The translations under genes were made by a program, and so were the position numbers. Shown one piece after another: positions 42,382-62,043 of a stretch of DNA of 64,000 bases. Numbering within the stretch: position 1 is the first letter of the stretch; every line of letters starts with the position of its first letter. Below the pieces are notes generated by a model that did not search any database, was not told the origin of the DNA, and saw only the letters and a list, made by a program, of their open reading frames with translations. This DNA comes from Thermoplasmatota archaeon (lineage in GTDB: Archaea > Thermoplasmatota > Penumbrarchaeia > JASLWR01), in assembly GCA_030740765.1 (NCBI GenBank), contig JASLWR010000005.1, forward strand, positions 1 to 64,000. Reading direction: 5' to 3'.

Positions 42382-42567
42382 CGAAAAACGGTAGGAGTTC
42401 ACGATTGATTAAACTTTCGGCGGATTTTTTTTAGGAAAGACATGTGAAGTTTTCACCCAAATTATGAAGCGGGCAACGCTGACATAATCTGAGATTTGTC
42501 TTACCGACAGGTCTCGAAGGATCCATGGGACCAAAGTTTTTTATCGAGCCATGCTGTTAGGCCATGT

Positions 42568-43527
42568 ATGAAGCTGCTTAAGCACTTTTACGATGCTGTG
42601 AGACAGATACCCCGGGGCCGGGTATCTACCTATGGCAGCATCGCAATAGCCCTTGGTGACAAGAGAGCTGCAAGAGCGGTGGGTCTAATGCTGCATCACA
42701 ACATTTATGCGCCTAAAGTACCGTGCCACAGGGTGGTGATGAGCGACGGGGGAATTGGTGGTTTTGGTACGGGTATCGATAACAAAATAAGCTTGTTGGC
42801 TGAAGAAGGTGTTGGGGTAAGCAATGGAAAAGTGGAAGATTTTGATCGAATAAAGTTTACCGATTTCGACACCCGGAATCCCCTGGCTGAACTCAGGGAT
42901 GAGCAAAGAAAGAACGCTCTCAAGATAGTGCTGGAGGACCGATTCGACGGGACCAGGCTGATCGCTGGTGTGGATGTTGCATACGTACCTGACGAAAAGA
43001 AAGATACTCAGACTGCATTTGGTGCCATGGTTGTTTGGGATATGGATAAAGCTTCCCCCGTGAGCCTGGACATTGCTGAGCTTGAAATCGATTTTCCCTA
43101 CATACCCACCTATCTATCGTACCGGGAGTTTCCTGTCATAGAAAAATTGGTGAAGAAAAATAATAAATTCGATATCCTGATGGTGGACGGCAACGGTGTT
43201 CTGCATCCTGAGAGGATGGGCCTTGCAAGCCATACCGGGATAAAGCTTGAGAAGCCCACAATTGGGGTGGCCAAGGGTGGATTGTGCGGGACCGTGAAGG
43301 ATGCCGATGATCCGAAACTGAAGGAGATATATATTGATGGAAGGCTTGCCGGATATTCGTTCTTGTCATCGAAAAGGGCGAAGAGATCGATATACGTTTC
43401 CCCGGGTCACCGCGTTTCCTTTGAAAGCACTATTGAATTGGTTAGGCGCATGTGTATTTTCAAGATACCCGAGCCACTGAGATTGGCTCATATCGAGGCG
43501 GTCAAAGCGCGAAAAAATATCCCCTAA
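42568..43527 (+). CDS. Bifunctional O6-alkylguanine-DNA alkyltransferase / endonuclease V
   Basis: 319 residues. Residues 1-95 are an alkyltransferase domain with the acceptor cysteine in VPCHRVV (Cys53) and the arginine-finger region GDKRAARAVG. Residues 100-319 are endonuclease V: IAGVDVAYV, VDGNGVLHPERMGLASHTG and KRAKRSIYVSPGHRVS. The first part would repair O6-alkylguanine, the second nicks at deoxyinosine. The same fusion was characterised biochemically in Ferroplasma acidarmanus, which supports a Thermoplasmatota origin. The frame reaches a TTG at 42496, but a TATA-like TTTTTATC (42539-42546) is centred 26 bp before the ATG at 42568, so a leaderless start there is chosen. Confidence 0.92.
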   Translation: MKLLKHFYDAVRQIPRGRVSTYGSIAIALGDKRAARAVGLMLHHNIYAPKVPCHRVVMSDGGIGGFGTGIDNKISLLAEEGVGVSNGKVEDFDRIKFTDFDTRNPLAELRDEQRKNALKIVLEDRFDGTRLIAGVDVAYVPDEKKDTQTAFGAMVVWDMDKASPVSLDIAELEIDFPYIPTYLSYREFPVIEKLVKKNNKFDILMVDGNGVLHPERMGLASHTGIKLEKPTIGVAKGGLCGTVKDADDPKLKEIYIDGRLAGYSFLSSKRAKRSIYVSPGHRVSFESTIELVRRMCIFKIPEPLRLAHIEAVKARKNIP

Positions 43528-43678: not shown

Positions 43679-43843
43679 GTGCTCAAAATTAATGTACCTT
43701 CAAAACTTCTCCGGGCAGTCTGCCGTATCATCACGGTTGAAAGTGTAGCCCGAAAAGGAATTGATGAATTTCAGATCGAACACAGCATTGAAAATCCCAA
43801 TGCCAGAGGGAGGTATTCGAATGCTGATCTCGCAATATATTAG
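43679..43843 (+). CDS. Possible small protein overlapping the DAC-like gene
   Basis: A 54-residue frame from a GTG, beginning LKINVPSKLLRAVCRIITVE and with an amphipathic pattern. It overlaps the start of the next gene by 23 bases and is not recognised. A TATA-like TTTTTATA near 43610 could serve both. It may instead be leader sequence of the DAC-like gene. Confidence 0.3.
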   Translation: MLKINVPSKLLRAVCRIITVESVARKGIDEFQIEHSIENPNARGRYSNADLAIY

Positions 43844-44993
43844 CAGTAATAAGTTCAAGGAATTTGATGACAAGCTCGTGGAAAAATTGATTTGGTTGGG
43901 CGCTAAAATGGGTTTCCGCGCCGTGAAGAGGAAACACGGTGGAATGCTCGTTATGGTCTCAAGAAAAAAAATCAAGTCCAATTACGAGAAGATATTGAAC
44001 AATCGTCTTGACTACAGCGCGGGAAGATATGCTTTTGCGCCCGAAGTTGAAGATTTGATCATCCATTACGGAATCGAGGATGGTGCCATACTCATTGATA
44101 GGAAAGGCAAACTTATCGATAACAACTGTGCCCTACCTCTTGATTTTAAAAAGAACTACGACTATAAACGGACCCATGGCGGTGTGAGAAGGTCTACGGC
44201 GATAAATGTGACCAAACGATTCAAAGCACTGGCATTGATGATCCGCTCCAATGGACTTGTAACAATAGTATATCAGGGAATGATCCGAGGCATTATCAGA
44301 TATACCGAGACAAGTTGGGGCAACATTGTCCCTTTGGTGGATAACGTTCGTCAGTCCTCTTTTCCCGAATATTCATCATTCCCCACTCACCTGAAGAATA
44401 AGGTGCTCTTACCAAAGTTGGATAAGTTCATCCAGGGAATGGGGGATCCTTATGCAGCCAAACTGGATTATTACAAGGAACGCACCAAGCCCAGTGTGGA
44501 TTGGGAACCGGATCGCTCGGAGGCGAACGTTCACTACCATAACAGGGAAAGTCCGGTAAAATACAAGCAGAGCCACTTTGGGGATTCCACCCATGTTTTA
44601 CACCAGAGCCACCATATTCTGGACAATGTATCCTACATTCCTCCAGGGGTCCCTGAGAACACCTGGGACTATAAGCAGCTGGAATATATTTACAAAAATG
44701 GAATAACTCCGGCCGTGGCTGCTATTTTATATGAGCGAATGAGGAATAGTCTCTATCCCTTGAATTTGAAAAAACCATTGACCTTGCAACAGAACTTGCC
44801 TCAAAAACCGCTAATGGCGTTACCTCCCGGACAGGATTGGAAACCTGCCATTCAAAAGGAGGCTGGGGAGATGGATACCAACGGCCATATTGGATCATTT
44901 CTGAGCAATATATATTCCATATTGAATCGTTTCAGCAGGAAGAATGAGCCATCCCGTTCCGTCAGAAAAAAATCATTCCCCCGAGATGACTAA
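43821..44993 (+). CDS. Diadenylate cyclase (DAC)-like domain protein
   Basis: 390 residues. Residues 25-165 resemble the DisA_N/DAC fold that makes cyclic di-AMP: RKHGGMLVMVS, EDLIIHYGIEDGAILIDRKG with the DGA motif at 87-89, and THGGVRRSTAINVT followed by TIVYQG. The second motif is normally GTRHRAA; here it is GVRRSTA (121-127), so two residues that contact ATP differ. It may still be active, as archaeal DacZ enzymes are diverse, or it may be a c-di-AMP or nucleotide sensor. The C-terminal 200 residues are unrecognised, with HYHNRES and THVLHQSHHILD His-rich segments. GGGAGGT lies 6 bases before the ATG at 43821, preferred to one at 43761. Confidence 0.6.
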   Translation: MLISQYISSNKFKEFDDKLVEKLIWLGAKMGFRAVKRKHGGMLVMVSRKKIKSNYEKILNNRLDYSAGRYAFAPEVEDLIIHYGIEDGAILIDRKGKLIDNNCALPLDFKKNYDYKRTHGGVRRSTAINVTKRFKALALMIRSNGLVTIVYQGMIRGIIRYTETSWGNIVPLVDNVRQSSFPEYSSFPTHLKNKVLLPKLDKFIQGMGDPYAAKLDYYKERTKPSVDWEPDRSEANVHYHNRESPVKYKQSHFGDSTHVLHQSHHILDNVSYIPPGVPENTWDYKQLEYIYKNGITPAVAAILYERMRNSLYPLNLKKPLTLQQNLPQKPLMALPPGQDWKPAIQKEAGEMDTNGHIGSFLSNIYSILNRFSRKNEPSRSVRKKSFPRDD

Positions 44994-49102: not shown

Positions 49103-49230
49103 AAGTGAAAGTAAGATGGAAATGAGGAGTGGCTGATTTCTGAAATCTTAGAACATTTGTCGATGGATGTCGGGAACATTTGTCGGGCAGATATGAGAAT
49201 ACTTTCAGGTAGATCGGATAACATTTGTCG
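49103..49230. repeat. Iteron-like array of GAACATTTGTCG repeats
   Basis: Copies start at 49151, 49174, 49197 (degenerate, GAATACTTTCAG) and 49219, at 23, 23 and 22 bp. That is about two helical turns, so a protein could bind all on one face. The core ATTTGTC recurs at the start of the gene at 48528-49004. A second repeat, AAGTGAAAGTAA, occurs at 49061-49072 and 49103-49114. The 458-base gap 49005-49462 has no gene. Confidence 0.6.
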
Positions 49231-49462
49231 TATGATGATGATAAACTACATTTGAGCTAAACCGATCACAGAAGTATTGAAATGAAATGGCCCGTTTTCC
49301 TCGTCCTTCCCTCCGACTCTTTAATCAAACATTCCGCTTTCTCGATAAACGCTCCTCAGCATCAGTAGTTTACAGAAATTATACAATAAGATTTAATATA
49401 GTTTAGTAGTATATTGCCATCGAACCAGCTATTAATTATAATAAATTCAGGAGGATCGAAAT

Positions 49463-49705
49463 ATGACGATTCGCATTACTATTCGGGATGCCGACACCGG
49501 CAGCAAAGTGGAGATGGACCTCGAAGAAGATAATTCCATCGAGGAGACCATAGAAAGCGCGGCAAGTTACTGGGAAAAGGAAGCAGGCGCCTACGTGCTT
49601 AGATACGGCAAGAAAGTGCTTAGGGGACAGACCACCATCGGGATGTCTGCCATCCGCGACGGGGACCTGCTGGAGTTGATTCCCGACCCAGAAGGCGGTT
49701 ATTGA
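49463..49705 (+). CDS. Ubiquitin-like beta-grasp protein ending in Gly-Gly-Tyr
   Basis: 80 residues. The strand pattern fits a ubiquitin/YukD-type beta-grasp fold: MTIRITIRDADTGSKVEMDL (hairpin), a helix SIEETIESAASYWEKE, strands AYVLRYGKKVLRGQTTIG and a final DGDLLELIPDPEGGY. The last residues are Gly-Gly-Tyr, so removing one residue would expose a di-glycine as in ubiquitin-type modifiers. AGGAGG lies 8 bases before the ATG. The next gene on the same strand encodes a JAMM metalloprotease, the enzyme class that trims or removes such modifiers. No E1 or E2 gene is in the window. Fold and ending are visible; modifier function is inferred. Confidence 0.65.
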   Translation: MTIRITIRDADTGSKVEMDLEEDNSIEETIESAASYWEKEAGAYVLRYGKKVLRGQTTIGMSAIRDGDLLELIPDPEGGY

Positions 49706-49902
49706 AATTTCTTAACCCGGAGAGGCTCCTTAGATCCGCAATCCTCGGGCTTTCTAAATGTGAACCCATTGCTGACAAGATCGGTTAATCCAGAGGAAAT
49801 GTCGGTTGATGGTTTAGCAATTTTATTAGATGTACTGTAATTTCTTAATTTTACTCGGCAATACTTCCAGGCTGATTGTCCTGGTCACGGGTGTTTGTCA
49901 TT

Positions 49903-50919
49903 ATGAATCCGGATGTTAGAAAACTTCTCGATATGCTGGAGGAAACGGTGGATGGTATCGATGATGAGGCTCGTATAAAACTTCTTCCGATAATAACCGG
50001 GTTCGTAAACGATCTGAAACGCGATATCGGAAGGGTGATGAAGCTTAAGGCGGACAAGCGTCTCAGGGATCTCGAAATGTCCCTGGACCTTAAATACCGT
50101 AAAAAAATTTCAAATATCAAACTTTCTGACATTCCGGAAGAGGTCGTGGCCGAGATACGCCAAATGTGCGAGTTGGAACTGGCTTCGAAATACCGGGAAC
50201 TGGAAATACAATCAGCGAATATTACTGGCGCTGGGGAAAAACCGGTTTCCGAAACGGGCCCGAAAGTGGAGGAAACCTTAGATGACGCTGCAGATGCCCA
50301 AAATAGTTCCGATGCAAGCTCCGCTACTCAAGGACAAGTTGTTGCTGCACCTGTAGAAAAACGCAGTTTTTCGAAGGTAAAGCATAATCTAAGATTATGC
50401 AGAGCAAAGCGGGCATCCTCGGAAAGTTCCCCTACGGATGAAGAACTCCCTGTTTTAATGCCTATTGAGCCAGTGGAACTCTATTTCAGATCGCAGGCGT
50501 TCAGGGCCATGATGGAACACTGCATTGATATTGGGAAGCGGGAACTCGAGGCCCTGGGATTTCTGCTTGGCGATCATTTCACCCACGAAGGCGATGTGTA
50601 TACTGTGGTTGAGGAGGTTGTCACCTCGGAGTTGGATTCCTCTATCATATCGGTCAAAATAAAAGATTTCACGCCCATGTTCGAAAGGATGCACGAAATA
50701 GAGAAGGCCGGAAAAGATTTTATTCTCGTAGGGTGGTATCACTCTCACCCTGGTCACACCTGTTTTTTATCCCCCACGGATGTTGATACACAGAAAAGGA
50801 TGTTCCGGAAAGATTATCACGCGGCAGTGGTGGTGGATCCTGTCAATTCAGAGGTCAAATCGTTCAAGCTTGGAAAAGGGGAAGACTATCGGGAAATATC
50901 CTACGGCGTGTATCGTTGA
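49903..50919 (+). CDS. JAMM (JAB1/MPN) metalloprotease domain protein
   Basis: 338 residues. The C-terminal 145 residues are a JAB1/MPN domain with a full zinc motif: Glu216 (ELEALGFLLG), His280 and His282 (WYHSHPG), Ser290 and Asp293 (LSPTDVD). Enzymes with this motif remove ubiquitin, SAMP or other modifiers from proteins. Residues 1-105 are helical, possibly coiled-coil (LLDMLEETVDGIDDEARIKL, LKRDIGRVMKLKADKRLRDL), and 110-185 are low-complexity with a basic patch (LRLCRAKRASSE). This N-terminal part is not found in simple archaeal JAMM1 proteins and may hold a partner. The frame opens at 49876 but the ATG at 49903 is the first. It lies 197 bases after the ubiquitin-like gene, same strand. 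Confidence 0.85.
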   Translation: MNPDVRKLLDMLEETVDGIDDEARIKLLPIITGFVNDLKRDIGRVMKLKADKRLRDLEMSLDLKYRKKISNIKLSDIPEEVVAEIRQMCELELASKYRELEIQSANITGAGEKPVSETGPKVEETLDDAADAQNSSDASSATQGQVVAAPVEKRSFSKVKHNLRLCRAKRASSESSPTDEELPVLMPIEPVELYFRSQAFRAMMEHCIDIGKRELEALGFLLGDHFTHEGDVYTVVEEVVTSELDSSIISVKIKDFTPMFERMHEIEKAGKDFILVGWYHSHPGHTCFLSPTDVDTQKRMFRKDYHAAVVVDPVNSEVKSFKLGKGEDYREISYGVYR

Positions 50920-50934
50920 ATTGTGAAGATGGAG

Positions 50935-51234
50935 TCAGCTACGCTTGAGTTTTATACCCTTTGGAAGGAAGATACCCAGTATAAGCAATATAAAAAAACA
51001 GATCAGAATAAAGTAAAAGAGGACCACTTCATCCGAGGGCCAATCAATTTTATTTTTTACCACGTTCACGAGAATGAAAAAGGCCGCTATCACCAGTGTG
51101 AAACCAAAGAGCTTCCCTGTATTCTTTACGGTCAGGGGCCAGTTCCTCCTGGGATCCGGGAATTTCAACCCAATGAACACTAGGATCACAATAAATGCTA
51201 TTATCATCCAATCGGTCCATATCATAATTATCAA
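50935..51234 (-). CDS. Small membrane protein coupled to the AAA+ ATPase
   Basis: 99 residues with three hydrophobic helices (MIIAFIVILVFIGL, LFGFTLVIAAFFILVNVV, VLFYFILICFFILLILGIFL) and short charged loops. Not recognised. Its ATG overlaps the stop codon of the AAA+ gene, so it is the last gene of that operon and probably a partner of the membrane ATPase. It converges with the JAMM gene with a 15-base gap. Confidence 0.7.
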   Translation of the reverse strand: MIIMIWTDWMIIAFIVILVFIGLKFPDPRRNWPLTVKNTGKLFGFTLVIAAFFILVNVVKNKIDWPSDEVVLFYFILICFFILLILGIFLPKGIKLKRS

Positions 51235-54200
51235 TCCCAGTCATCGTCCACGTCATTTCGTCCTCCACCGTACCGCCGCTTACCACGCAGGTCTTCTTCC
51301 TCCCACCCATTCTCCGGTTCATCATAGTCATCTTCTTCCTCTTCATCGTAATCATCATCCCACCCCTCATCATCCTTTTTACCGCCATCGTACCGGCTCA
51401 CCCGGTATGACCTCTCACCCTCACCGCGTCCGCTTTTTTTCGTCAGTCCAATTCCCTCTCCGATTCTCTTGTGGACCTTCCTCTCGTAATGCGACTGCAG
51501 CTCGATGTAGTCCTTCTGCATCTTCTTCGAGATGGACGGCTTCAGAATGTCGATCATATCATGGAAATCGTCCATGGTTATGGAGGTTTTCTTCTTCGTT
51601 GAAAGCGCCCGTTTCATTGCCTGTGTTGCGCATTCTCGGCAAAGATTCGCAAGGTCCGCTCCGGAATACCCGTCGGTTAATTCCGCAATCTCTCTCACAT
51701 TGATCTTTCCCCGCGTAGGCTTGCCCTTCAGGTGTATCTTCAATATCTCCACCCGATCCCGGGGTCCCGGCGGCGGCACGTACATCACTTTATCGAACCT
51801 GCCGGGTCTTAACAACGCAGGGTCTACCAACTCGGGCTTGTTTGTGGCTGCGATTATTATGATTCCCGCGAACTCATCCATGCCGTCCATCTCGGAAAGC
51901 ATTATGCTCAACAGCCTCGGGGTGACGTCGTCGGCGCTGTAGAAGTCCCTTCGTTTTGCTATTGCGTCTATCTCGTCCAGGAACAGAAGGCAGGGCTGTT
52001 TTTCCCGAGCTATCTTGAAAAGGTCGTTTATGAGATTCTCGGATTCGCCGTACCATTTCGACATCACGTCGGAGCATTTGACCCCGATCATCTCCACCTT
52101 CAGTTCGGTGGCTATTACCCGCATCAACAGCGTCTTCCCGCATCCAGGGGGACCGAACAGTATCATGCCCTTGGGTGGCACTACTCCATATTTTTTTGAC
52201 ATTTCCGGCCTTAATAGCGGGCCTATCATTGAGTCGGTTATCTCACTCTTGACGCCCTTGAGCCCCCCAACATTTTCGAAAGACGATTTCCGGAAGCTCA
52301 TCATATCCGATATCCTTGTTCCCACCCCAACGGTCTTCTTGTCCGTGTAGAATTCGGAGTAAGCTCCCCTCAGGATTAAGCCTAAATTGATTGCGAGCAT
52401 AAGGACTGGGAATACAAGAACGTAAACCAGTATATACTTCCATGAAAAGATAATATCTGTCTTGAAATCGGCGAGGAACATTCCTCCGATAGTAGCAGCA
52501 AGCAGTATACCCCCTGCGGTGAATGAATATATGAACACTTTTTGGCCATTGCTTCTGGATTCGATCTTTTTCTTGATAAGATATACCACCAGCACCATTA
52601 GAACCCATATCAATATCTGCATTATTGGCACCATGGAGGTCATATAGTCCTTTATGAAACTGGTCATGGCAGCGCCGTCGATATCTCTTATACTGCCGAA
52701 AGCATTGAAGTAACTAGTTGGTGAAAATATTTGATCGCCGGGGACCCTGGAGAATGTTGTTATACTGTTCTTTTCGGTTGCGTACGGTGATACTATGAAC
52801 GATAGGTTGATCACGTTACCGGTGGCAGTCACAATGGAGAGGAAAAGGCCTGATAAGACAGTGACTGTAATACTTGTAAAGAGAGAGAAAAGGAAGATCG
52901 AGAAAACAGGAACAAGGAACGAGATTCCGAAGGTGGAAAGAAAAACTGTCAGGAACGATAGATAACCGAATTTCCAGTTGAACAACGAGCATAGAGTGAC
53001 AATGAGGGCGAAAATCATGAAGAGCAGCCCGAACTCCGCTGTCTGAAATGCTGTGGAGCCTATGGCAACGAAACTAACGAATATTAGTGCTATGAAAGGG
53101 AACCTGTACCCGATAGCTCCCGTAATGAGAGCGATTATCATAACCATCCACCACGGGTAAAAGGGACACCACAGGGCTCCGAAGAATCCCAGGAATCCAA
53201 ATGCTACGGCTGTGCTGATGTTCTTTTTCCGCTCTATGTTCCTGAACCGTTTCTCAAGATTGGTTACGATTTTCCCGTATCCCTTCAATTCTACCTTTTT
53301 CTTATCCTGCGCGGTTTCTACCTCCCGACGGCCCCGATCCAAAAGATAGAAAAAGGATATTGGGAACATAAGGGTCACTATGACAAGGGTAACCATTACC
53401 TTGAGACTGAAGAAGTCCATGATGTCTAATCCGGTGGATATGTCGTTCACGTCGTAATTGATCAAGAAAGTAAAATCCGTGGTATTCCCGTCGATGGTCA
53501 CCGTTATTTCTTTCGGATCGTAACCGCTCTCCAATGGCTCTACTTTTATGTTGTATTCACCATCCCTGATGTCCGGGGGTGTCCAGAAAAGGCCGTTTAC
53601 AGTTGATCCTGAAACTCGATATCCCGCTGAGTTGAACACTGTGACATTTGCCTCTACATAACTTGATCTTACCTCGTCATAGGCCCCAACGATTATACCG
53701 TATAGATACGTTTCCTCGGGCACCGTTACATCGTAACTGTATTCTCTTGAGGTCATGGGTGTCATGTACTCATCGTAGGCGGTGACACGGAAGATAACCG
53801 AGGTGTTTCCCGGGTACCGGGGAATATTTGTCTTGTATGAGTTGTCGTCGATCCTGATCAAGGAGTTCGGCCAGTTTATCTCATTTAAATTGCCTGGAAG
53901 TTGGAACGATACGTTGATGTCGGCCCGGGTGATTATCACACCTGGCCAAATTCCCTGTATCCTCACCTCAACGGTGTCATTGACAGTGGGGGGGACCGGA
54001 CCATAGGTGAGGTTCATATTTTCCTTGAAAGAGGGGAATCTCCAGGCGATCTTGGGTGCTACCTCGTAGTAATAAGTTTGCGATTCTAGCTGTCGGACCC
54101 CGTCATACACAGAGACGTAGAATGAAACATTCGTGTTGCCCGGATACCCGTAAAGCTCGACAAAGGCTTCGGTCTCGCTGGTGAGGTTCATCTCATATGC

Positions 54201-54518
54201 GCCGGAGGATTTGAAATCCCCTCCCTTGATGTCCAGCCAAATGTATGCCCATAATAGCTCCGCACCGTTTCTGGATTGAATGCTTACGTTCACTTCCTCA
54301 TATTCAGAAGGTATTGCAGGAGAGTATGAAAGTAAGATATTATCGTCGAAATTATCGTTTATAAAAACGGCTCCTTGTGAGGTCTCGATGACGGAGGTGA
54401 ATACCAGGGTGGAAATGAACCCCAGCAGGATCAGCGGTAGTATTTTGTACTTGTGACAATGTTCGCGGAATCGCGGCCCCAAAGGGGACCGATTCTGCTG
54501 AATCGATCTGTATTTCAT
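51231..54518 (-). CDS. Membrane-spanning AAA+ ATPase with extracellular beta-domains
   Basis: About 1095 residues in an unusual order. An N-terminal signal-anchor (ILPLILLGFISTLVFTSVI) leads to about 320 extracellular residues of Ig-like beta domains with many N-x-S/T sites (YSPAIPSEYEEVNVSI, GPVPPTVNDTVEVRI). Around eight or more membrane helices follow (roughly 385-690). The cytosolic part (about 740-1000) is a single classical AAA+ domain: GPPGCGKTLL (Walker A), LLFLDEIDAIAKRR (Walker B), an Arg finger in DPALLRPGRFDKV, and GYSGADLANLC. The tail is Asp/Glu/Trp-rich. It resembles p97- or FtsH-type unfoldases but lacks a protease domain. It could extract or remodel envelope proteins in response to an outside signal. 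ATG 54518 is chosen over GTG 54527. Confidence 0.85.
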   Translation of the reverse strand: MKYRSIQQNRSPLGPRFREHCHKYKILPLILLGFISTLVFTSVIETSQGAVFINDNFDDNILLSYSPAIPSEYEEVNVSIQSRNGAELLWAYIWLDIKGGDFKSSGAYEMNLTSETEAFVELYGYPGNTNVSFYVSVYDGVRQLESQTYYYEVAPKIAWRFPSFKENMNLTYGPVPPTVNDTVEVRIQGIWPGVIITRADINVSFQLPGNLNEINWPNSLIRIDDNSYKTNIPRYPGNTSVIFRVTAYDEYMTPMTSREYSYDVTVPEETYLYGIIVGAYDEVRSSYVEANVTVFNSAGYRVSGSTVNGLFWTPPDIRDGEYNIKVEPLESGYDPKEITVTIDGNTTDFTFLINYDVNDISTGLDIMDFFSLKVMVTLVIVTLMFPISFFYLLDRGRREVETAQDKKKVELKGYGKIVTNLEKRFRNIERKKNISTAVAFGFLGFFGALWCPFYPWWMVMIIALITGAIGYRFPFIALIFVSFVAIGSTAFQTAEFGLLFMIFALIVTLCSLFNWKFGYLSFLTVFLSTFGISFLVPVFSIFLFSLFTSITVTVLSGLFLSIVTATGNVINLSFIVSPYATEKNSITTFSRVPGDQIFSPTSYFNAFGSIRDIDGAAMTSFIKDYMTSMVPIMQILIWVLMVLVVYLIKKKIESRSNGQKVFIYSFTAGGILLAATIGGMFLADFKTDIIFSWKYILVYVLVFPVLMLAINLGLILRGAYSEFYTDKKTVGVGTRISDMMSFRKSSFENVGGLKGVKSEITDSMIGPLLRPEMSKKYGVVPPKGMILFGPPGCGKTLLMRVIATELKVEMIGVKCSDVMSKWYGESENLINDLFKIAREKQPCLLFLDEIDAIAKRRDFYSADDVTPRLLSIMLSEMDGMDEFAGIIIIAATNKPELVDPALLRPGRFDKVMYVPPPGPRDRVEILKIHLKGKPTRGKINVREIAELTDGYSGADLANLCRECATQAMKRALSTKKKTSITMDDFHDMIDILKPSISKKMQKDYIELQSHYERKVHKRIGEGIGLTKKSGRGEGERSYRVSRYDGGKKDDEGWDDDYDEEEEDDYDEPENGWEEEDLRGKRRYGGGRNDVDDDWD

Positions 54519-54531
54519 GGTTATCACTTAC

Positions 54532-56013
54532 TCAGGTCCCCACAGCGACCTTTTGTCTTGATATCAATCGTTTTTTAAGTTTCAATCGTTCGATGATCCC
54601 CAACCCCACGAATCCAGCAATGAAGTATTCAACGGGGAAGACCGTAGGAGTAGCCGCCGTGGGTAGACCAGCGGGAGCGCTAAGGGGGATCACCGTGGGA
54701 GATGCAGGGCTTGGGACCATAATGGGGTAACCTCCCGGTGGAGGTGGTGGAGGTGGTGGGGGTCCGGGAATTGGTGGTGGGCCGGGAGGGATTATCAGGT
54801 TAATGGGCGGTTTGGATGACTTTACGGCAAGTGTGACAGTGGAAAAGAATTTTATGTGTTCATCGTCTCCGACATTGTACAATACTCTGGCGGTTTGCTG
54901 AGGATGAATAGATATATTATTATCTTGAAGGCTGGATGAGATATTGTAGCTGATGAATATCTTTTCACCGATGGTGACGTTGCTAATATTCCATTCCATG
55001 CGTGTCAGATTGTCATTCGTTTTGTATATTACGTCCGGGTATCTCGTAAACGAGTTTTCGTCAACATAAAAACCATTGCGTAGAACGTCTCTGAGCATCG
55101 GTTCGGAATCCCTGATGTCCGGGTCGTAACCGGCAGTATAGTTACGGAACCTCATTGCGATCTTTTCATAGATGGCAACCAGGTCATTGGGTGTCTTTGC
55201 AACGAAATACTCACCACCGGTTTTCTTTGCCATCCAGCGGAGGAGGTCTTCGTCAATGCGGGTCGATGAACCGAACTCGTAGAGGCCTATTGTATAGATG
55301 GTGATATTATTTTCAATGGATTCATTCAGCACTTCCATGGTGATATTGGTGCTGGATGGTTCCGGTTTGCCGTCGGTAAGAAGAATATTGATCCTCGATT
55401 TGTTCTCTTCACCATAGTCAATAAACTCCCTATTGGTCAGTTGTACGGCATCAGTGAAATTAGTCTGTCCCTGGTTGTCGATCTCGTTGAGGTCTTCCAT
55501 GACCTGCTCGTAATCCGTGGAAAGATGATGGCTGCCTACCAGCTCAGCACTGTCTGAGAATTTGATCACTGCGGCACGATCCGGGGCGATGAGTTTTTCC
55601 ACATAATTCTTGGCTGCATCCCGCCGCAGGTAATCCGGGTCGGCGAGATTCATGCTCATGGAGCAGTCTATTGTAAAAATTACGTCTTGGGAATTGAAAT
55701 TAATGGCGGGATTTCCTGCCCCCGAGATCTCAAGGAAGACCGTTGCATTTTTTGGACACCTATCATCATATCTCTGCCATATTTCATCTGTCGAGATGGA
55801 TTTGTCAATGATCAAGTGGGGGGGTGAGTTAGCGTCGATACCGGTGTCAGCTCTCAATGAAAGGCTGTCTACGTTATCTTCAGATTCCACGGATTCAGAC
55901 CGAAGCGAAATGGGTTCCACTGAACCGGCGGGGATGGTCCCTCCAATATGGGAAAGATGGCCCGCAAGGCAGAATAAGGCCGCAGATATGACTGCTATAG
56001 TGATCACCCTCAT
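54532..56013 (-). CDS. VWA domain surface protein with C-terminal anchor
   Basis: 493 residues. After a signal peptide (ITIAVISAALFCLAGHLSHIGG) and a linker, residues 110-310 form a von Willebrand factor A domain with a MIDAS motif (VIFTIDCSMSMN, that is D-x-S-x-S), the conserved Thr loop (GQTNFTDAV) and ILLTDGKPEPSS. A beta domain follows, then a proline run (GPPPPPPPPPGGYP), a membrane helix (EYFIAGFVGLGIIERLKL) and a short basic tail. VWA domains bind proteins through a metal ion. It lies between the 2004-residue VWA protein and the AAA+ gene on the same strand with 13-15 base gaps, so the three are one operon. Confidence 0.85.
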   Translation of the reverse strand: MRVITIAVISAALFCLAGHLSHIGGTIPAGSVEPISLRSESVESEDNVDSLSLRADTGIDANSPPHLIIDKSISTDEIWQRYDDRCPKNATVFLEISGAGNPAINFNSQDVIFTIDCSMSMNLADPDYLRRDAAKNYVEKLIAPDRAAVIKFSDSAELVGSHHLSTDYEQVMEDLNEIDNQGQTNFTDAVQLTNREFIDYGEENKSRINILLTDGKPEPSSTNITMEVLNESIENNITIYTIGLYEFGSSTRIDEDLLRWMAKKTGGEYFVAKTPNDLVAIYEKIAMRFRNYTAGYDPDIRDSEPMLRDVLRNGFYVDENSFTRYPDVIYKTNDNLTRMEWNISNVTIGEKIFISYNISSSLQDNNISIHPQQTARVLYNVGDDEHIKFFSTVTLAVKSSKPPINLIIPPGPPPIPGPPPPPPPPPGGYPIMVPSPASPTVIPLSAPAGLPTAATPTVFPVEYFIAGFVGLGIIERLKLKKRLISRQKVAVGT

Positions 56014-56028
56014 CTTATCGATCCATCC

Positions 56029-59000
56029 CTAATCGTAAAAATCATCATCCGGTTCTTCGTCTATCCAACCGCTCATTTCATCCACATCGTCGGCCGCCAT
56101 CCCGTATGGCTTTTCACTGTTACCCCGCTCTTCTTTCATTCGTTTGCGCTGATCCTTCCAGTCCTTCTTTCTCCTCTTGGATTCAACTTCATCCGCACCG
56201 TCATCCGTTTCACCCTCCGGGCTTTCATCAAGCCATCCACCCATCTCCTCTATGTCATCCTGGGCATCCTGATAACGTCCTCCACTCCCTCTTCCTCTCC
56301 CTTTTTTCCCCCTATTCCCCTTTCTCCCTTTACCGCGTTTTGAAGATTTTTTATTTTTTCCCGTTCTTCCACGCCCCTTCGAGGGAGTGCTTTCGTTACT
56401 AAGACTTTTTTCTTCCTCCTCCTCCTCTAACATATCCGAGGTCACCACTGTGGCCTCTTCCTCCTTCTCACTGTATTTCTCGACGTCATCCGTTTTACCT
56501 GCGCTTTCCTTCTTTTCGCTGATCGATACGTTTTCTTTCTTACTGCCTTTCACCCATTTTTTTGCCTGGCCTGTGCGCACCAGTACAAAAATGATTATTA
56601 TGATAAGCAAAATAAGAAGTATGAAGAGTATCAACGGCATGGAATCGCTGAATTCCTGAAGGAAGGGCGTCTCGTTCTCCACTTCTATGACCGACGATTG
56701 TATTCTCTCATTACCGTACTCGTCCACTGCCTTTATCTGGTAGGTATGCTTGCCGTTGTCCTCCACGCCTGTGGTCCATATGTACCAAAATGAGTTATCA
56801 GCCTCGTCGTAACCCATCTCTTTCCACCCGGCCCCTTCGATGTTTATGTACATTCGCGAGGCGTTATCATTGTTCTCAACCCTGAATTCGATCTGGCTGT
56901 CACCCTTCACAGGTACATCGTCCAGAAGGACGCCGGGTCCCCTGTTGTTGAAGTTCACCATTACCATGCCAACATTGGATTTGCCAACGTAGTCCCTTAC
57001 GGTGATGATCAGGGTGTGGGCCCCATCCGGATATTTCGTAGTATCTATTGGGGCTTCATAGAGGCCGGTAACGGGATTGATGAAAACGCTTATTGGAGTG
57101 CTGTTATCCACCGACATGGCCACTGACTCTACTGATACAGTGTCGTAACAGTAGGCTTTCACAGTATTTGTCCCGGTCAGGTGGTCTCCGGCCCCTGGTG
57201 AGACCAATGTCAGCTCGGGGACCGAATTGTCCACATTTACTTTTATGGCACGGGTGGTGACATGCCCGGCTTCATCCACAGCCATCACTTCGATCTCATG
57301 GGTTCCATCGGTGTAATTTCCGGTATCCCAGAGGTTTGGCCCCGTGGAGTTTATCTTCACCCATCCGGTCTTGTCCACATTGTACTGGATATTGGTGTCA
57401 TAATGATCTTTTGAGCCGATATCTATCTCGGCAAGGCCTGTGAGATACGCGTTTCCAGCGGGTTTCCTTATATCAAGGGTTGGGAAGTTCCCGTCGACCC
57501 TGAATCCCACCGGAGCCAGCGTGACGCTGTTCAGGGATCCATCATATGCGGTAACGGAAACTTCATACCCCCCGTCTGTGATTCCATAAAGGGATTGGGT
57601 GTACTCGTAGTAATTGGATACGGAATTGTGTGTTGCCTGCACCTTTTTTGCGTGGGGAGATCCAGTGAAGATGTATAGGCTCACCTTATCAACGCCAAGG
57701 CTGTCCGAAGCCAGTATCCTGAATGTCATGGACCCTTCCACGAATTGATCCGGTGTGGGGCTGTGAACCGTGCATTCCGGGAAACCGTTGTCCACTGTCA
57801 CAGTGATGGTCTCCACCACGGTGTGCCCTATTGCATCCCGGGCTCTTATGGATATGCTATGCAATCCGTCTCCGGTCCTTGATGTGTTCCACGGGACGCC
57901 GATGTCCCGCCACCCGGAGGAATCCACATTATATTCTGTGGGCAGAGGATACGAATCGATGGTGGTGACGTTCATGTCCACGCTTCCGTTAAGGTAATAT
58001 TGGTTTTTCGGGCTGTTTATGACTAGTTTAGGCGGCGTGTTGTCCACGTTGAAGAATACCGGTCCGTCGCTAGCCACCTTGCCTGAAAGATCATATGCCA
58101 GGGCGGAAATCGTCTGGATGCCGTCCTCAAGGATCACAGTGGTATCAAGGCTGTACTCGTAGTAACCGCTCTGGCTGTTGAAGGTAGCGTTCACCAGCTC
58201 GTTGTATATGTCCAGAACGACCAGGGAGATACCCACCGTATCGCTGGCCTTCACCTTGAAAGTCATAACTCCCTGCATATACTGGTTATCATATGGTGTA
58301 TGTATCTCGCAAGTGGGTTTCCTGTTGTCCACGGTTACCGTAATGGAATGACTGGTCGAGTGGCCCGCGAGGTCCCTGCCCCTGATCTCAATGACGTGCT
58401 TTCCGTCGGCTATCAAGGTGGTATTCCAAGCGATCGAGACGTCCTTCCATCCGCTGGAATCTATATTGTATTCAAGAGATCTTGGGAATGACTCCCCGCT
58501 CAAAGACGTGTTAAGTTGAACTGAACCCGAGACGATATCACCCTCCAACGGACTGTTAATCAGTAGCATTGGGGCATTGTTATCCACCTGAAAATCAACT
58601 TGCGCCGATATCGTACGGTTGCCAGCAAGGTCCAGGGCCATTATTGTTGTTGAATAATTCCCGTCGTTTACACCGTTTGTATCAAAGATGCATTCGAAAT
58701 AACCTGTGCCAGAGTTATAGCTCATAGAAGTGTTCAATATCTCCGCTTGGGTCCCAGAATCCAGAATAATCGCCCTGACGCTTTCAAGTCCCACTTCGTC
58801 TGAGACTATGGCTCCAAGGGTATATATTCCCTCAATGAACTGGTTTTGAGAGGGAAGGTTCAATCTACATTCCGGGTTATGATTGTCTATGGTTATTATG
58901 ATACTCTCCAGGACCTCGTGCCCAGCCTTGTCCCCTGCTCTGATCCTCATGATGTGGTCTCCGTCAGGGAACAACCAGGTACTCCAGTTATCAGAACTAT

Positions 59001-62000
59001 TCACCCAGCCTGAACTGTCTATGTTGTATTCAAGCAGGTCCAGAAATGCATCGGATACTGAAATATTAAGTGTAAAGGTACCATAAATAATCTGTCCGTC
59101 CGTTGGCTTATAGATAGTCATTCTCGGTTCGTTGTTGTCTACATTGAAATCCTTGGTCGCAGACGGTCTGCTATGACCTGCTTTGTCATGAACGTATGCT
59201 GTGAACCGGTAGCTGCCGTCTGGCAGGTTGGCCGTTCCCAGTACTAGTTCATAGTAGCCGGAATCCATATTGTATCCCATGGATGTGTTTGAAACCAACT
59301 CTGCTCCTGTCTCATTTATTATGGTGCCGTTCACGCTTTGGATTCCGATCGCGTCCATGGCAGTTACCCTGAACGAGTACAATCCCTCTATGTATTCACC
59401 GGATATTGGGGTTATTACAGTTGATTGGCTGGGTGCGGTGTTGTCCACTATGAAGTTTATTTGCATTGTTGACTCGGCCCCGTAAGGGTCTTTGGCATTA
59501 ACGTGGAGAACGTGGGCCCCGTCCAAGTAAAGGGACGAATCCAATAGAGCGCCGAATTCAGTCCCGGAGACAAGCGACATGTTGAACCAAGCATTTGCAT
59601 CCACCCGGTAACGTGGGTTTGTATCGGTATCTGGGATCCCGTCGGGATCGCTAATGTTCGCGATGATCTGGTAGTTACCCGAAACAATATCCCCCGCAAC
59701 GAGGTTTTTCATTATTATATCCACATCGTTGAATATCTCAATATTGCCTGATTGGCTACCCAGGTTTCCAGCCTTGTCGTAGGCGTTAACAGTATGCGTG
59801 TAAACCCCCGATACGAGTCCGGTTGTGACCGTTACGTTGTCCGATGTGTAGTCCCCGTCGTAAGCCACCTCATCGTTTCCCGTTCCATCATCCCTCATGG
59901 GCACCTGATTGGCACCACCAATGTTGGATGCATCGAGGTAAACATTTCCCAACCCGGTATCCTCATCGGAACAGTTGGCCACCACGTATATGGAATACCC
60001 GTCCTGGGCCTTGACACGGCCTGGGGGGTAAGAGGTATTCACCCTGCCCACGGAAGGTTGTACGTTGTCCAGTCGCACTGTGTACTGGGTTCCGTTCATG
60101 TTACCGGCGCGATCGGTCCCTTCTACCTGGAAGATGATATCTCCCGAATCCAGGCTGTTAACTGTAACCAGATCGGAGCCATAAATGTCGTCATCGGCTT
60201 TTCCGTCCGCGTGCAATCCGTCATCGAACATGTTGACCTTGAGGGCGATTCCGATGGAGGACAGGTCTGCTTGGATGGAGTCGATCCCGTGGGGCTGTTC
60301 GATACCCAGGGTGCTGGCTCCGAAACTCTGGATCACCTGCGAAACATTGTTGTAGATTGCATACAGGTCGGTGGAGGATGGTGCGAAGTAATATTTGCCC
60401 CCTATCGATGAATTGGCTATGCTCATGACATCGAACTCGGTGGTGTACTTGTAGGAAGCTTCGGTGGGATCGAGATAACCCGATGCGGTGGCATTAGTCC
60501 CTTGAGGCCACATCCCAAGGCCGATAGTGAAGACCGGTATACTGGCATTGATCAATCCCGTTCGTGTCCGTTCGGGCGAGCCACCAGGGAAATTGGCTGT
60601 GGTCTTGGCGTTCACCGGATTTGTATCGAGTTCTCTCTGAATGGAAGGATATGCTCTCATAGGCGAGTCCCATATACAACCTCCGCTCACGGTCCAGGTC
60701 TGTCTACCGGCGCCGTTTGGTGCCCCGGGACAGTATGTTTCCGAGCCGGTTTCGTACCGGTTTCCACCAAGGGTTCCACCGGTATCGTTCCCATCCGTCA
60801 TTGCGATGACCACCGGAACCGCTTCCTCTCTTCGGTTGTTGATGGCATACTGGATTCCAGTACCTATGGTGTCCCAAATAGGTGTGTTGCAGCTGGGTTG
60901 GCCGAGATTCGTCGTAAGATGCAGACCGTCATCCCTGGTGATTATATATTTCGAGACATTGCGTCCGGTGGACGTGTAACCTGTACCCTGTGGATCGTTA
61001 TAGGTTTCGGACATTGTTAGGAAGGTGGAGTACTGTTTGACGTCTTCCAGGGGCCAGGGTCCTTGTCTGTCAAAGGATACTATTGCGCACCTGTCATTAT
61101 CCGCAAGCTGGTCCAGGAAGGTGGAGGAAGCGTATTCAAGGTCATCCCATTTCATTCCCCCGGAGCCGTTCGAATCCCGCATGGATCCGGAGTTATCCAG
61201 AACCAGTACCACGTCCAGAGGTTTTCTCTCGACAACATCCTCGATCAATATCTTGTAGTCAAGCGCCTTGGCCGTTACCCTTATCACATCACCATTCTTG
61301 ACGGCTACTTGCCCCGCCGGTAGCATGGTGTCGATCTCCAGTATCGTGGGTTCGTACTGATCCACGTTGCATGCTGCTGTCACGTTTCTAAAGTTTCCCT
61401 TCGAATCGGTGGCATGAACATAGGCTGCTCGGTAACCCCCGCCAACAGTTACGTTTACGAGAGCAGTGCCATATGTATTATCGTTGGGTGCCCCATCGTT
61501 ATGAAGTCCATCGTCGTACATGGTGAGGCCGGGGTCGTCCCCAATCATAGAAGCATCGCAGCGGACGGAACTAATTGAGGACACCGATTCGATAACCTTT
61601 GCGATAATGGTAACCTTGTCTCCAGGTTTTGCAGTGTTTTGTCCAGTGGGATATAGCGTTGTTGCATTGGTGATCTGAGGGCCAGAATTATCGAATTTTA
61701 CCGGGATCGATGTAATATCGTTTGTTGTATCCCCCGTGGAATCATATCTTATTATATGCCGCCCGTCGCTCCATCCCGATGTATTGATCTGGAAAGACCA
61801 TGTAGGACCGCCTGCCATGGTAGCTATAAGTATACCATCTATACTCAATTCAACCTTATCGGCATTTGTGGAATTACACCTGAAGTTCACCACACCGGTC
61901 AGTATGTCCCCCGATTCCGGGAGATATGGAGTTACGGGATTCGCACTCGTGTTTCCAGTGAATAAGCCCAAGGCGGCAAGTCCGCTGATAACGATCATTG

Positions 62001-62043
62001 TTGTCATGGCCATCGCAGACCATTTACTACTCATGTTGAACAT
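56029..62043 (-). CDS. Giant VWA/Ig-repeat surface protein with charged cytoplasmic tail
   Basis: 2004 residues. Signal peptide (MTTMIVISGLAALGLFTG), an Ig-like domain, a VWA domain with a MIDAS site (DVVLVLDNSGSM) near residue 280, then about 1300 residues of Ig-like repeats in pairs of about 190, each with phrases like NIDSSGWKD, DGKHVIEIRGRDLAGH and TVTVDNRKPTC. A membrane helix (MPLILFILLILLIIIIIFVLV) follows. The cytoplasmic tail of about 190 residues alternates acidic and Lys/Arg/Gly-rich blocks and holds two copies of a DD-[IV]-x-EM-x-GW-[LI]-DE motif, one at the very end. GGAAGGG precedes the ATG at 62043. It heads the operon with the VWA and AAA+ genes; the tail is a possible contact to the ATPase. 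Confidence 0.87.
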   Translation of the reverse strand: MFNMSSKWSAMAMTTMIVISGLAALGLFTGNTSANPVTPYLPESGDILTGVVNFRCNSTNADKVELSIDGILIATMAGGPTWSFQINTSGWSDGRHIIRYDSTGDTTNDITSIPVKFDNSGPQITNATTLYPTGQNTAKPGDKVTIIAKVIESVSSISSVRCDASMIGDDPGLTMYDDGLHNDGAPNDNTYGTALVNVTVGGGYRAAYVHATDSKGNFRNVTAACNVDQYEPTILEIDTMLPAGQVAVKNGDVIRVTAKALDYKILIEDVVERKPLDVVLVLDNSGSMRDSNGSGGMKWDDLEYASSTFLDQLADNDRCAIVSFDRQGPWPLEDVKQYSTFLTMSETYNDPQGTGYTSTGRNVSKYIITRDDGLHLTTNLGQPSCNTPIWDTIGTGIQYAINNRREEAVPVVIAMTDGNDTGGTLGGNRYETGSETYCPGAPNGAGRQTWTVSGGCIWDSPMRAYPSIQRELDTNPVNAKTTANFPGGSPERTRTGLINASIPVFTIGLGMWPQGTNATASGYLDPTEASYKYTTEFDVMSIANSSIGGKYYFAPSSTDLYAIYNNVSQVIQSFGASTLGIEQPHGIDSIQADLSSIGIALKVNMFDDGLHADGKADDDIYGSDLVTVNSLDSGDIIFQVEGTDRAGNMNGTQYTVRLDNVQPSVGRVNTSYPPGRVKAQDGYSIYVVANCSDEDTGLGNVYLDASNIGGANQVPMRDDGTGNDEVAYDGDYTSDNVTVTTGLVSGVYTHTVNAYDKAGNLGSQSGNIEIFNDVDIIMKNLVAGDIVSGNYQIIANISDPDGIPDTDTNPRYRVDANAWFNMSLVSGTEFGALLDSSLYLDGAHVLHVNAKDPYGAESTMQINFIVDNTAPSQSTVITPISGEYIEGLYSFRVTAMDAIGIQSVNGTIINETGAELVSNTSMGYNMDSGYYELVLGTANLPDGSYRFTAYVHDKAGHSRPSATKDFNVDNNEPRMTIYKPTDGQIIYGTFTLNISVSDAFLDLLEYNIDSSGWVNSSDNWSTWLFPDGDHIMRIRAGDKAGHEVLESIIITIDNHNPECRLNLPSQNQFIEGIYTLGAIVSDEVGLESVRAIILDSGTQAEILNTSMSYNSGTGYFECIFDTNGVNDGNYSTTIMALDLAGNRTISAQVDFQVDNNAPMLLINSPLEGDIVSGSVQLNTSLSGESFPRSLEYNIDSSGWKDVSIAWNTTLIADGKHVIEIRGRDLAGHSTSHSITVTVDNRKPTCEIHTPYDNQYMQGVMTFKVKASDTVGISLVVLDIYNELVNATFNSQSGYYEYSLDTTVILEDGIQTISALAYDLSGKVASDGPVFFNVDNTPPKLVINSPKNQYYLNGSVDMNVTTIDSYPLPTEYNVDSSGWRDIGVPWNTSRTGDGLHSISIRARDAIGHTVVETITVTVDNGFPECTVHSPTPDQFVEGSMTFRILASDSLGVDKVSLYIFTGSPHAKKVQATHNSVSNYYEYTQSLYGITDGGYEVSVTAYDGSLNSVTLAPVGFRVDGNFPTLDIRKPAGNAYLTGLAEIDIGSKDHYDTNIQYNVDKTGWVKINSTGPNLWDTGNYTDGTHEIEVMAVDEAGHVTTRAIKVNVDNSVPELTLVSPGAGDHLTGTNTVKAYCYDTVSVESVAMSVDNSTPISVFINPVTGLYEAPIDTTKYPDGAHTLIITVRDYVGKSNVGMVMVNFNNRGPGVLLDDVPVKGDSQIEFRVENNDNASRMYINIEGAGWKEMGYDEADNSFWYIWTTGVEDNGKHTYQIKAVDEYGNERIQSSVIEVENETPFLQEFSDSMPLILFILLILLIIIIIFVLVRTGQAKKWVKGSKKENVSISEKKESAGKTDDVEKYSEKEEEATVVTSDMLEEEEEEKSLSNESTPSKGRGRTGKNKKSSKRGKGRKGNRGKKGRGRGSGGRYQDAQDDIEEMGGWLDESPEGETDDGADEVESKRRKKDWKDQRKRMKEERGNSEKPYGMAADDVDEMSGWIDEEPDDDFYD

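Follow-up and report, generated by a model that had tools for sequence, protein, structure and literature searches.

The stretch of DNA analysed, referred to as the window, comprises 64,000 nucleotides of contig JASLWR010000005.1 from a Thermoplasmatota archaeon. An open reading frame at 49463-49705 (+), with a strong ribosome-binding site (aggagg, 49451-49456 (+)) ahead of it, codes for an 80-residue ubiquitin-like (Ubl) modifier whose translation is MTIRITIRDADTGSKVEMDLEEDNSIEETIESAASYWEKEAGAYVLRYGKKVLRGQTTIGMSAIRDGDLLELIPDPEGGY. Its C-terminus is PEGGY, preceded by PD, and Gly78-Gly79-Tyr80 (49694-49702 (+)) constitutes a di-glycine with a tail of one residue. After a gap of 197 bases, a figure correctly given in the preliminary description, comes a gene on the same strand which, read from the ATG at 49903 to 50919 (+), specifies a 338-residue protein with the full JAMM motif. 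Both genes have clear homologues across the phylum, so neither is a chance open reading frame. Three copies of (G/T)AACATTTGTCG, spaced 23 and 45 bases, are present at 49151-49230, some 230-310 bases ahead of the Ubl gene.

Further along, at 51231-62043 (-), are the genes for a membrane AAA+ protein of 1098 residues, a VWA protein and a 2004-residue Ig/VWA surface protein. The AAA domain of the first is nearest to CDC48, PAN and FtsH, and no match to a protease domain was found in it. This neighbouring operon had been given as one reason for the distinctness of the pair. A link is rejected: its genes run the other way and do not adjoin the Ubl or JAMM genes in the relatives inspected. Elsewhere in the window, 42496-43527 encodes the DNA-binding domain of an O6-methylguanine methyltransferase fused to endonuclease V, and 43761-44993 encodes an archaeal 410-residue protein with a DisA-type diadenylate cyclase domain (PF02457).

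Profile comparison of the 80-residue protein brought up both YukD (E=0.001; 20.2 bits, cut-off 27) and ubiquitin (E=0.0025), each below cut-off in Pfam, and sequence search of the PDB gave weak matches only (RAD23 UBL, 0.002, for example). Because of this a structure model was needed. The AF2 model, made with 17 homologues, has a pLDDT of 87.4 and a pTM of 0.71, and is a beta-grasp with the order strand-strand-helix-strand-strand-strand. Its top Foldseek matches are SUMO, Caldiarchaeum ubiquitin, Hub1 and NEDD8 (E about 2e-7 to 4e-7, TM 0.82-0.87). Judged by this model the product is a ubiquitin-fold protein, and its earlier description as beta-grasp-like is borne out. YukD being the best Pfam match, the protein might be thought to serve, like YukD, in WXG100/type VII secretion. 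However, that match is below cut-off, Pfam scans of the neighbours revealed no secretion ATPase or WXG100 protein, and the operon considered below is composed of E1, Ubl, E2 and JAMM with no type VII secretion genes. The secretion reading is rejected, and its chance of being right is minimal.

The JAMM protein is a metalloprotease of the Rpn11/CSN5-like type (PF01398 E=1e-11; RPN11 E=2e-14), and by sequence and structure, including Foldseek, its closest relatives are RPN11, CSN5 and the Rpn11 homologue of Caldiarchaeum. The MPN/JAMM catalytic domain is formed by residues 190-338 (50470-50916 (+)), with block means of pLDDT at 90-96, except for 76-82 at residues 241-260. Within it all four residues named beforehand are present and conserved: the catalytic Glu216 (50548-50550 (+); 99%), the zinc ligands of His280-Ser-His282 (50740-50748 (+); 100%) and Asp293, which together with Ser290 lies at 50770-50781 (+) (100% for both). 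Ahead of the domain (49903-50469 (+)) the model has helices in residues 1-99, with pLDDT of about 45-77, and a disordered linker at about 125-186. This extension of ~185 residues, which had been held to set the protein apart, is real but lineage-specific, as operon-type JAMMs have only about 45-75 residues in front of the domain, and it is no mark of distinctness. The genome from which the window comes has a second JAMM of the same family on contig C87 (L010, 8260-9291), whose acidic spacer and hydrophobic segments at the C-terminus are shared by a JAMM of another genome (G027, L156). A further JAMM on C26 has, as read by eye, a motif resembling that of the SAMP protease, HSHPSG...D.

The distribution of the Ubl was followed in three ways. 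Whole-protein search found it in 26 of 97 relatives within the phylum. Among 390 genomes of the phylum surveyed it is present in 80 (67 of the 203 high-quality ones), in about 20 families of Thermoplasmatota. When 84,980 species genomes were scanned, 131 related stretches came up, of which 80 loci were retained; the labels of these loci are Thermoplasmata/Thermoplasmatota, Methanomassiliicoccales/-ceae/-coccus, Methanomethylophilaceae, 'Euryarchaeota' or only 'archaeon'. Every one of the 29 Ubl copies from the whole-protein search, which include a second copy in some genomes, ends with P-x-P-x-G-G and 0-9 variable residues. The claim of Gly-Gly conservation rests on this set, as the scan pattern contained PDP[EQ]GG and so the 80 scanned loci have the Gly-Gly by construction. 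The residues that follow it in homologues are W, G, A, KR, YW, S, R, L, longer tails or none at all. Of the GGY ending expected to be conserved, it is thus the Gly-Gly that is constant, while what comes after it varies. At 47 of the 80 loci (about 59%) there is no tail. A precursor tail therefore does not distinguish this Ubl from those of the SAMP/JAMM1 type, and, with so many Ubls already ending at Gly-Gly, processing cannot be the sole job of the JAMM.

The JAMM is a conserved neighbour of the Ubl, as the preliminary description would have it, though mostly within a larger unit. The order E1-Ubl-E2-JAMM, on one strand, is found at 56 of the 80 related loci and Ubl-E2-JAMM at 15 more. The genes are tightly packed: the median distance from the Ubl stop to the E2 start is 3 bases, and the E2 and JAMM reading frames overlap. 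In the genome of the window (158 contigs, 94% completeness) the components are dispersed. A UBA-like E1 is on C92, an E2-like gene is beside the second JAMM on C87 and another intact E2 is on C75. The only adjacent pairs are Ubl with JAMM and E2 with JAMM, and neither E1 nor E2 is beside the pair of the window. A relic E2 was looked for between the window Ubl and JAMM and none was found. The arrangement there looks like a derived, split form.

Among the 97 relatives, E2 is detected in 26/26 Ubl-positive genomes, E1 in 24/26 and JAMM in 23/26, with none of the three in any of the 71 Ubl-negative genomes (bit-score thresholds of 100, 140 and 40 for E2, E1 and JAMM, respectively). The anticipated co-occurrence of an E1-like gene is thereby confirmed. 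The two genomes with Ubl and no detected E1 are 81% and 72% complete (G043 and G048). Fisher p-values for these associations treat genomes as independent and are inflated by shared ancestry.

Against solved structures the E1 matches UBA1/UBA2/UBA3 at E=3e-27, versus 1.5e-16 for MoeB. It is about 255-290 residues long and ends at the second zinc half-site. Unlike in the E1s of Caldiarchaeum and eukaryotes, no UFD/Ubl C-terminal domain and no second catalytic domain were found in it. Its nucleotide-site residues, Cys189, Cys192, Cys274 and His277 (of the zinc type, CxxC...C..H) and Cys208 in FSCTG are invariant or nearly so, and Cys208 we take, by comparison with known E1 motifs, to be the thioester cysteine. 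The E2, of UBC fold, is related to eukaryotic E2s (E=4e-11; PF00179 E=1e-13). Its HPN and Cys110 are 99% conserved and Cys148 is 100% conserved (Cys110 being numbered as in the C87 copy).

These features bear on the alternative that the Ubl belongs to the ThiS/MoaD family, as a sulfur carrier or SAMP/Urm1-type protein served by a MoeB-type E1, with the JAMM as desampylase. SAMP systems likewise combine Ubl, E1 and JAMM, the window JAMM gives a weak match to the desampylase model (28 bits, cut-off 130) and there is a MoeB-like E1 on C55 of the same genome. However, the Ubl has no match to PF02597 at E<=1 in the Pfam scan, ThiS/MoaD genes are separate, on C117, a dedicated E2 is linked to the Ubl and accompanies it in all 26 Ubl genomes, the linked E1 is closer to UBA proteins than to MoeB, and the JAMM is of RPN11/CSN5 type. 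On the E2 linkage, the type of E1 and the separate ThiS/MoaD genes, the SAMP reading is discarded as improbable.

Another alternative is anti-phage conjugation of the BIL or CBASS (Cap2/Cap3) kind. BIL has the same four types of component, and PADLOC does report weak JAMM and E1 matches. Yet it has no match for the Ubl or the E2, BilC is matched only at E=3e-5, and the best E1-E2 match is 2e-13, whereas eukaryotic E1 in the PDB is matched at 3e-27. The genomic setting also argues against defence. In distant families the operon has ribosomal genes and a gene resembling that for 6-phospho-3-hexuloisomerase as its neighbours (names from sequence inspection), a stable housekeeping setting, and it is family-wide, unlike patchy defence islands. 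With PADLOC weak or negative, a defence role was set aside; it is about as improbable as the sulfur-carrier one.

Lineages in which different parts of the system have been lost, among E1, E2, Gly-Gly and JAMM activity, serve as natural controls. In one genus (g30; G034, G077 and G307) E1 and E2 are intact but the protein in the JAMM position is shortened and lacks HxH...D, and in 3/3 of these genomes the Ubl ends exactly at Gly-Gly. A connection between the absence of a tail and the state of the JAMM is suggestive only, 47 of the 80 loci being zero-tailed anyway. The converse is seen at seven loci (L322-L328; five in genus g75, together with G144 and G305) where E1 and E2 are absent, as judged within the fetched 8-9 kb near the Ubl, and at 7/7 of which the Ubl is without a terminal Gly-Gly. 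At one of them (L323, g75) there is a JAMM-like remnant beside the Gly-Gly-less Ubl, in the same genomic surroundings as the intact operon. Across loci Gly-Gly is thus retained together with the conjugating enzymes, and its loss along with that of E1 and E2 suggests that the ancestral role was conjugation. The same Methanomethylophilaceae-like genomes, with Gly-Gly-less Ubls, one of them beside the remnant, and no E1 or E2 in the locus, could be read as showing that Ubl and JAMM act non-covalently, as an adaptor pair, and that conjugation is not their main role, at least in some lineages. However, Gly-Gly is intact in the genome of the window and at every E1/E2-linked locus examined, and at those loci the catalytic sites are intact too, apart from the dead JAMMs of g30. 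Such a non-covalent pairing is, if anything, slightly less probable than the sulfur-carrier and defence alternatives.

Search for RING domains with classical C3HC4 spacing gave no match. What the relatives have instead is a RING-like motif, C..C-C.CG..[FY]H..C-C..C, a C4HC3 domain with eight ligands, for which Pfam matches are mostly below cut-off. It is present in 23/26 Ubl genomes versus 13/71 others, and several of the RING-positive, Ubl-negative genomes carry divergent E1/E2/JAMM operons of their own. On their sequence these domains may be RINGs that act as E3s, and they are treated as candidates. In four genomes one adjoins the operon. In two of them (G016 and G027) a very long protein with this domain at its end immediately precedes Ubl-E2-JAMM, in another (G043) such a protein immediately precedes E2-JAMM, and in the fourth (G031) the domain is part of a 409-residue protein just ahead of E1-Ubl-E2. 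Many others follow a single hydrophobic segment near the C-terminus, as seen by simple hydropathy, which is not a topology prediction. A 1696-residue open reading frame (G003:C51; L091 2942-8032) combines a right-handed beta-helix region and a hydrophobic segment with two domains, one RING-like and one JAMM (PF01398 E=2e-14). A CDP-alcohol phosphatidyltransferase (PF01066) with a C-terminal RING-like domain is encoded at G000:C125 (L310 4007-4921; L236 1444-2358).

It is conceivable, though on balance doubtful, that the Thermoplasmatota system is membrane-centred, with cytoplasmic-side RINGs serving as E3s, carried by proteins that are single-pass or long and surface-like, and with JAMMs tethered to the membrane taking the tag off, so that the tagging would control turnover of envelope or surface proteins. 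Examples that prompt this reading are the hydrophobic C-terminus of the C87 JAMM, the 1696-residue protein of G003, and the RING-tailed giants before Ubl-E2-JAMM or E2-JAMM.

The pair in the window very probably belongs to a ubiquitin-type conjugation system that is native to Thermoplasmatota, as its modifier and its deconjugating and processing protease. The fold, the conserved Gly-Gly and catalytic residues, the operon, the co-occurrence and the coordinated decay are all computed features of that system. In the proposed cycle the JAMM would cut off whatever follows Gly-Gly, a single Tyr for the window Ubl. The E1 encoded on C92 would then adenylate the Ubl C-terminus and load the Ubl on Cys208, from where it would pass to the active Cys of an E2 (C87 and C75; Cys110 in the C87 protein). 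The E3 step may fall to RING-like proteins, of which many are membrane-anchored, and the JAMM would afterwards free the Ubl from its targets. That the JAMM both trims the Tyr and takes the tag off proteins is the most likely division of its work. We infer actual conjugation, to substrates and with a role for E3, and specificity of the window JAMM for the window Ubl.

Other ubiquitin-type operons occur in phylum mates (L305-L309). They comprise a Ubl ending IIGG with E2 and E1 (f4), a Ubl, a Ubl-E2 fusion with an internal PKGG, a JAMM and an E1 (f5), and an E1 with a C-terminal extension, an E2 and a JAMM (f10 and f20). A 496-residue protein (G000:C65; L013 9758-11248), with an N-terminal Ubl domain (E=4e-5 to the window Ubl) followed by zinc-ribbon-like motifs and no Pfam family, is possibly a reader or adaptor.

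Complete archaeal ubiquitin-type systems are usually credited to Aigarchaeota and Asgard, and Thermoplasmatota are outside both. The spread of the E1-Ubl-E2-JAMM operon over many of their families, relatives of gut methanogens included, bears on the debate over where the eukaryotic ubiquitin system originated and how many steps this took. Methanomassiliicoccales, one of the orders concerned, has cultured members, so archaeal ubiquitylation becomes testable in the cell and not just with recombinant parts.

Distinctness of the pair from SAMP/JAMM1, asserted at the outset, stands, though not for the reasons then offered (the tail, the N-terminal extension and the AAA+ operon). It is set by the dedicated E2 with its catalytic Cys, the eukaryote-type E1 and the RING-like candidates. 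SAMP/HvJAMM1 of Haloferax shares an archaeal Ubl with Gly-Gly, an E1 and a JAMM, but has no E2, its modifier is of the ThiS/MoaD family and its JAMM is of another group. Bacterial BIL and CBASS Cap2/Cap3 share E1, E2, JAB protease and the target/Ubl logic, but are distant by profile search and differ in architecture and genomic setting. Prokaryotic RING/E2/YukD-like systems were reportedly treated by Burroughs et al. in 2011.

Part of the novelty of the system may already be published. No account of the four-gene system in Thermoplasmatota was found in full-text literature, most subscription papers being beyond reach of the search. Fuchs et al. 2018 delineate a JAMM-3 group, prokaryotic JAMMs more like Rpn11/CSN5, and state that JAMMs nearer to Rpn11 share operons with homologues of Ub, E1 and E2, RINGs being an addition in Caldiarchaeum and Asgard (PMC6043591). 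The present JAMM family is likely the JAMM-3 group, for which the main text of their paper names no taxa. The available part of a 2015 paper reports WP_019177758 of Methanomassiliicoccus luminyensis as a relative of PSMD14/Rpn11 in Methanomassiliicoccales (PMC4453063). It is probably a member of the present family, and in that part the JAMM is described with no Ubl, E1 or E2 genes. A survey of the ubiquitin toolkit has one euryarchaeal genome, from a marine group II cell (PMC4327156).

The closest counterparts are the ubiquitin operons known from Caldiarchaeum and Asgard, a JAMM of which type has been shown to process the precursor and to deconjugate (PMC5654768, PMC6043591). In common with Caldiarchaeum subterraneum (Aigarchaeota) and Asgard there are a ubiquitin-fold modifier with Gly-Gly and a removable tail, an E1, an E2 with catalytic Cys, an Rpn11-like JAMM next to the operon and RING-type candidates. 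Apart from the phylum, the differences are in the E1, which in Thermoplasmatota is compact and without the C-terminal UFD/Ubl domain, in the E2, whose HPN-to-Cys loop is longer (HPNIMPPEDGGYVC) and which has the extra invariant Cys148, and in the RING-like domains, which are of C4HC3 type and often form part of membrane proteins or long, surface-like ones rather than of small srfp proteins. With its compact E1 and its RING candidates often on membrane proteins, the Thermoplasmatota system is rated a variant of archaeal ubiquitin systems.
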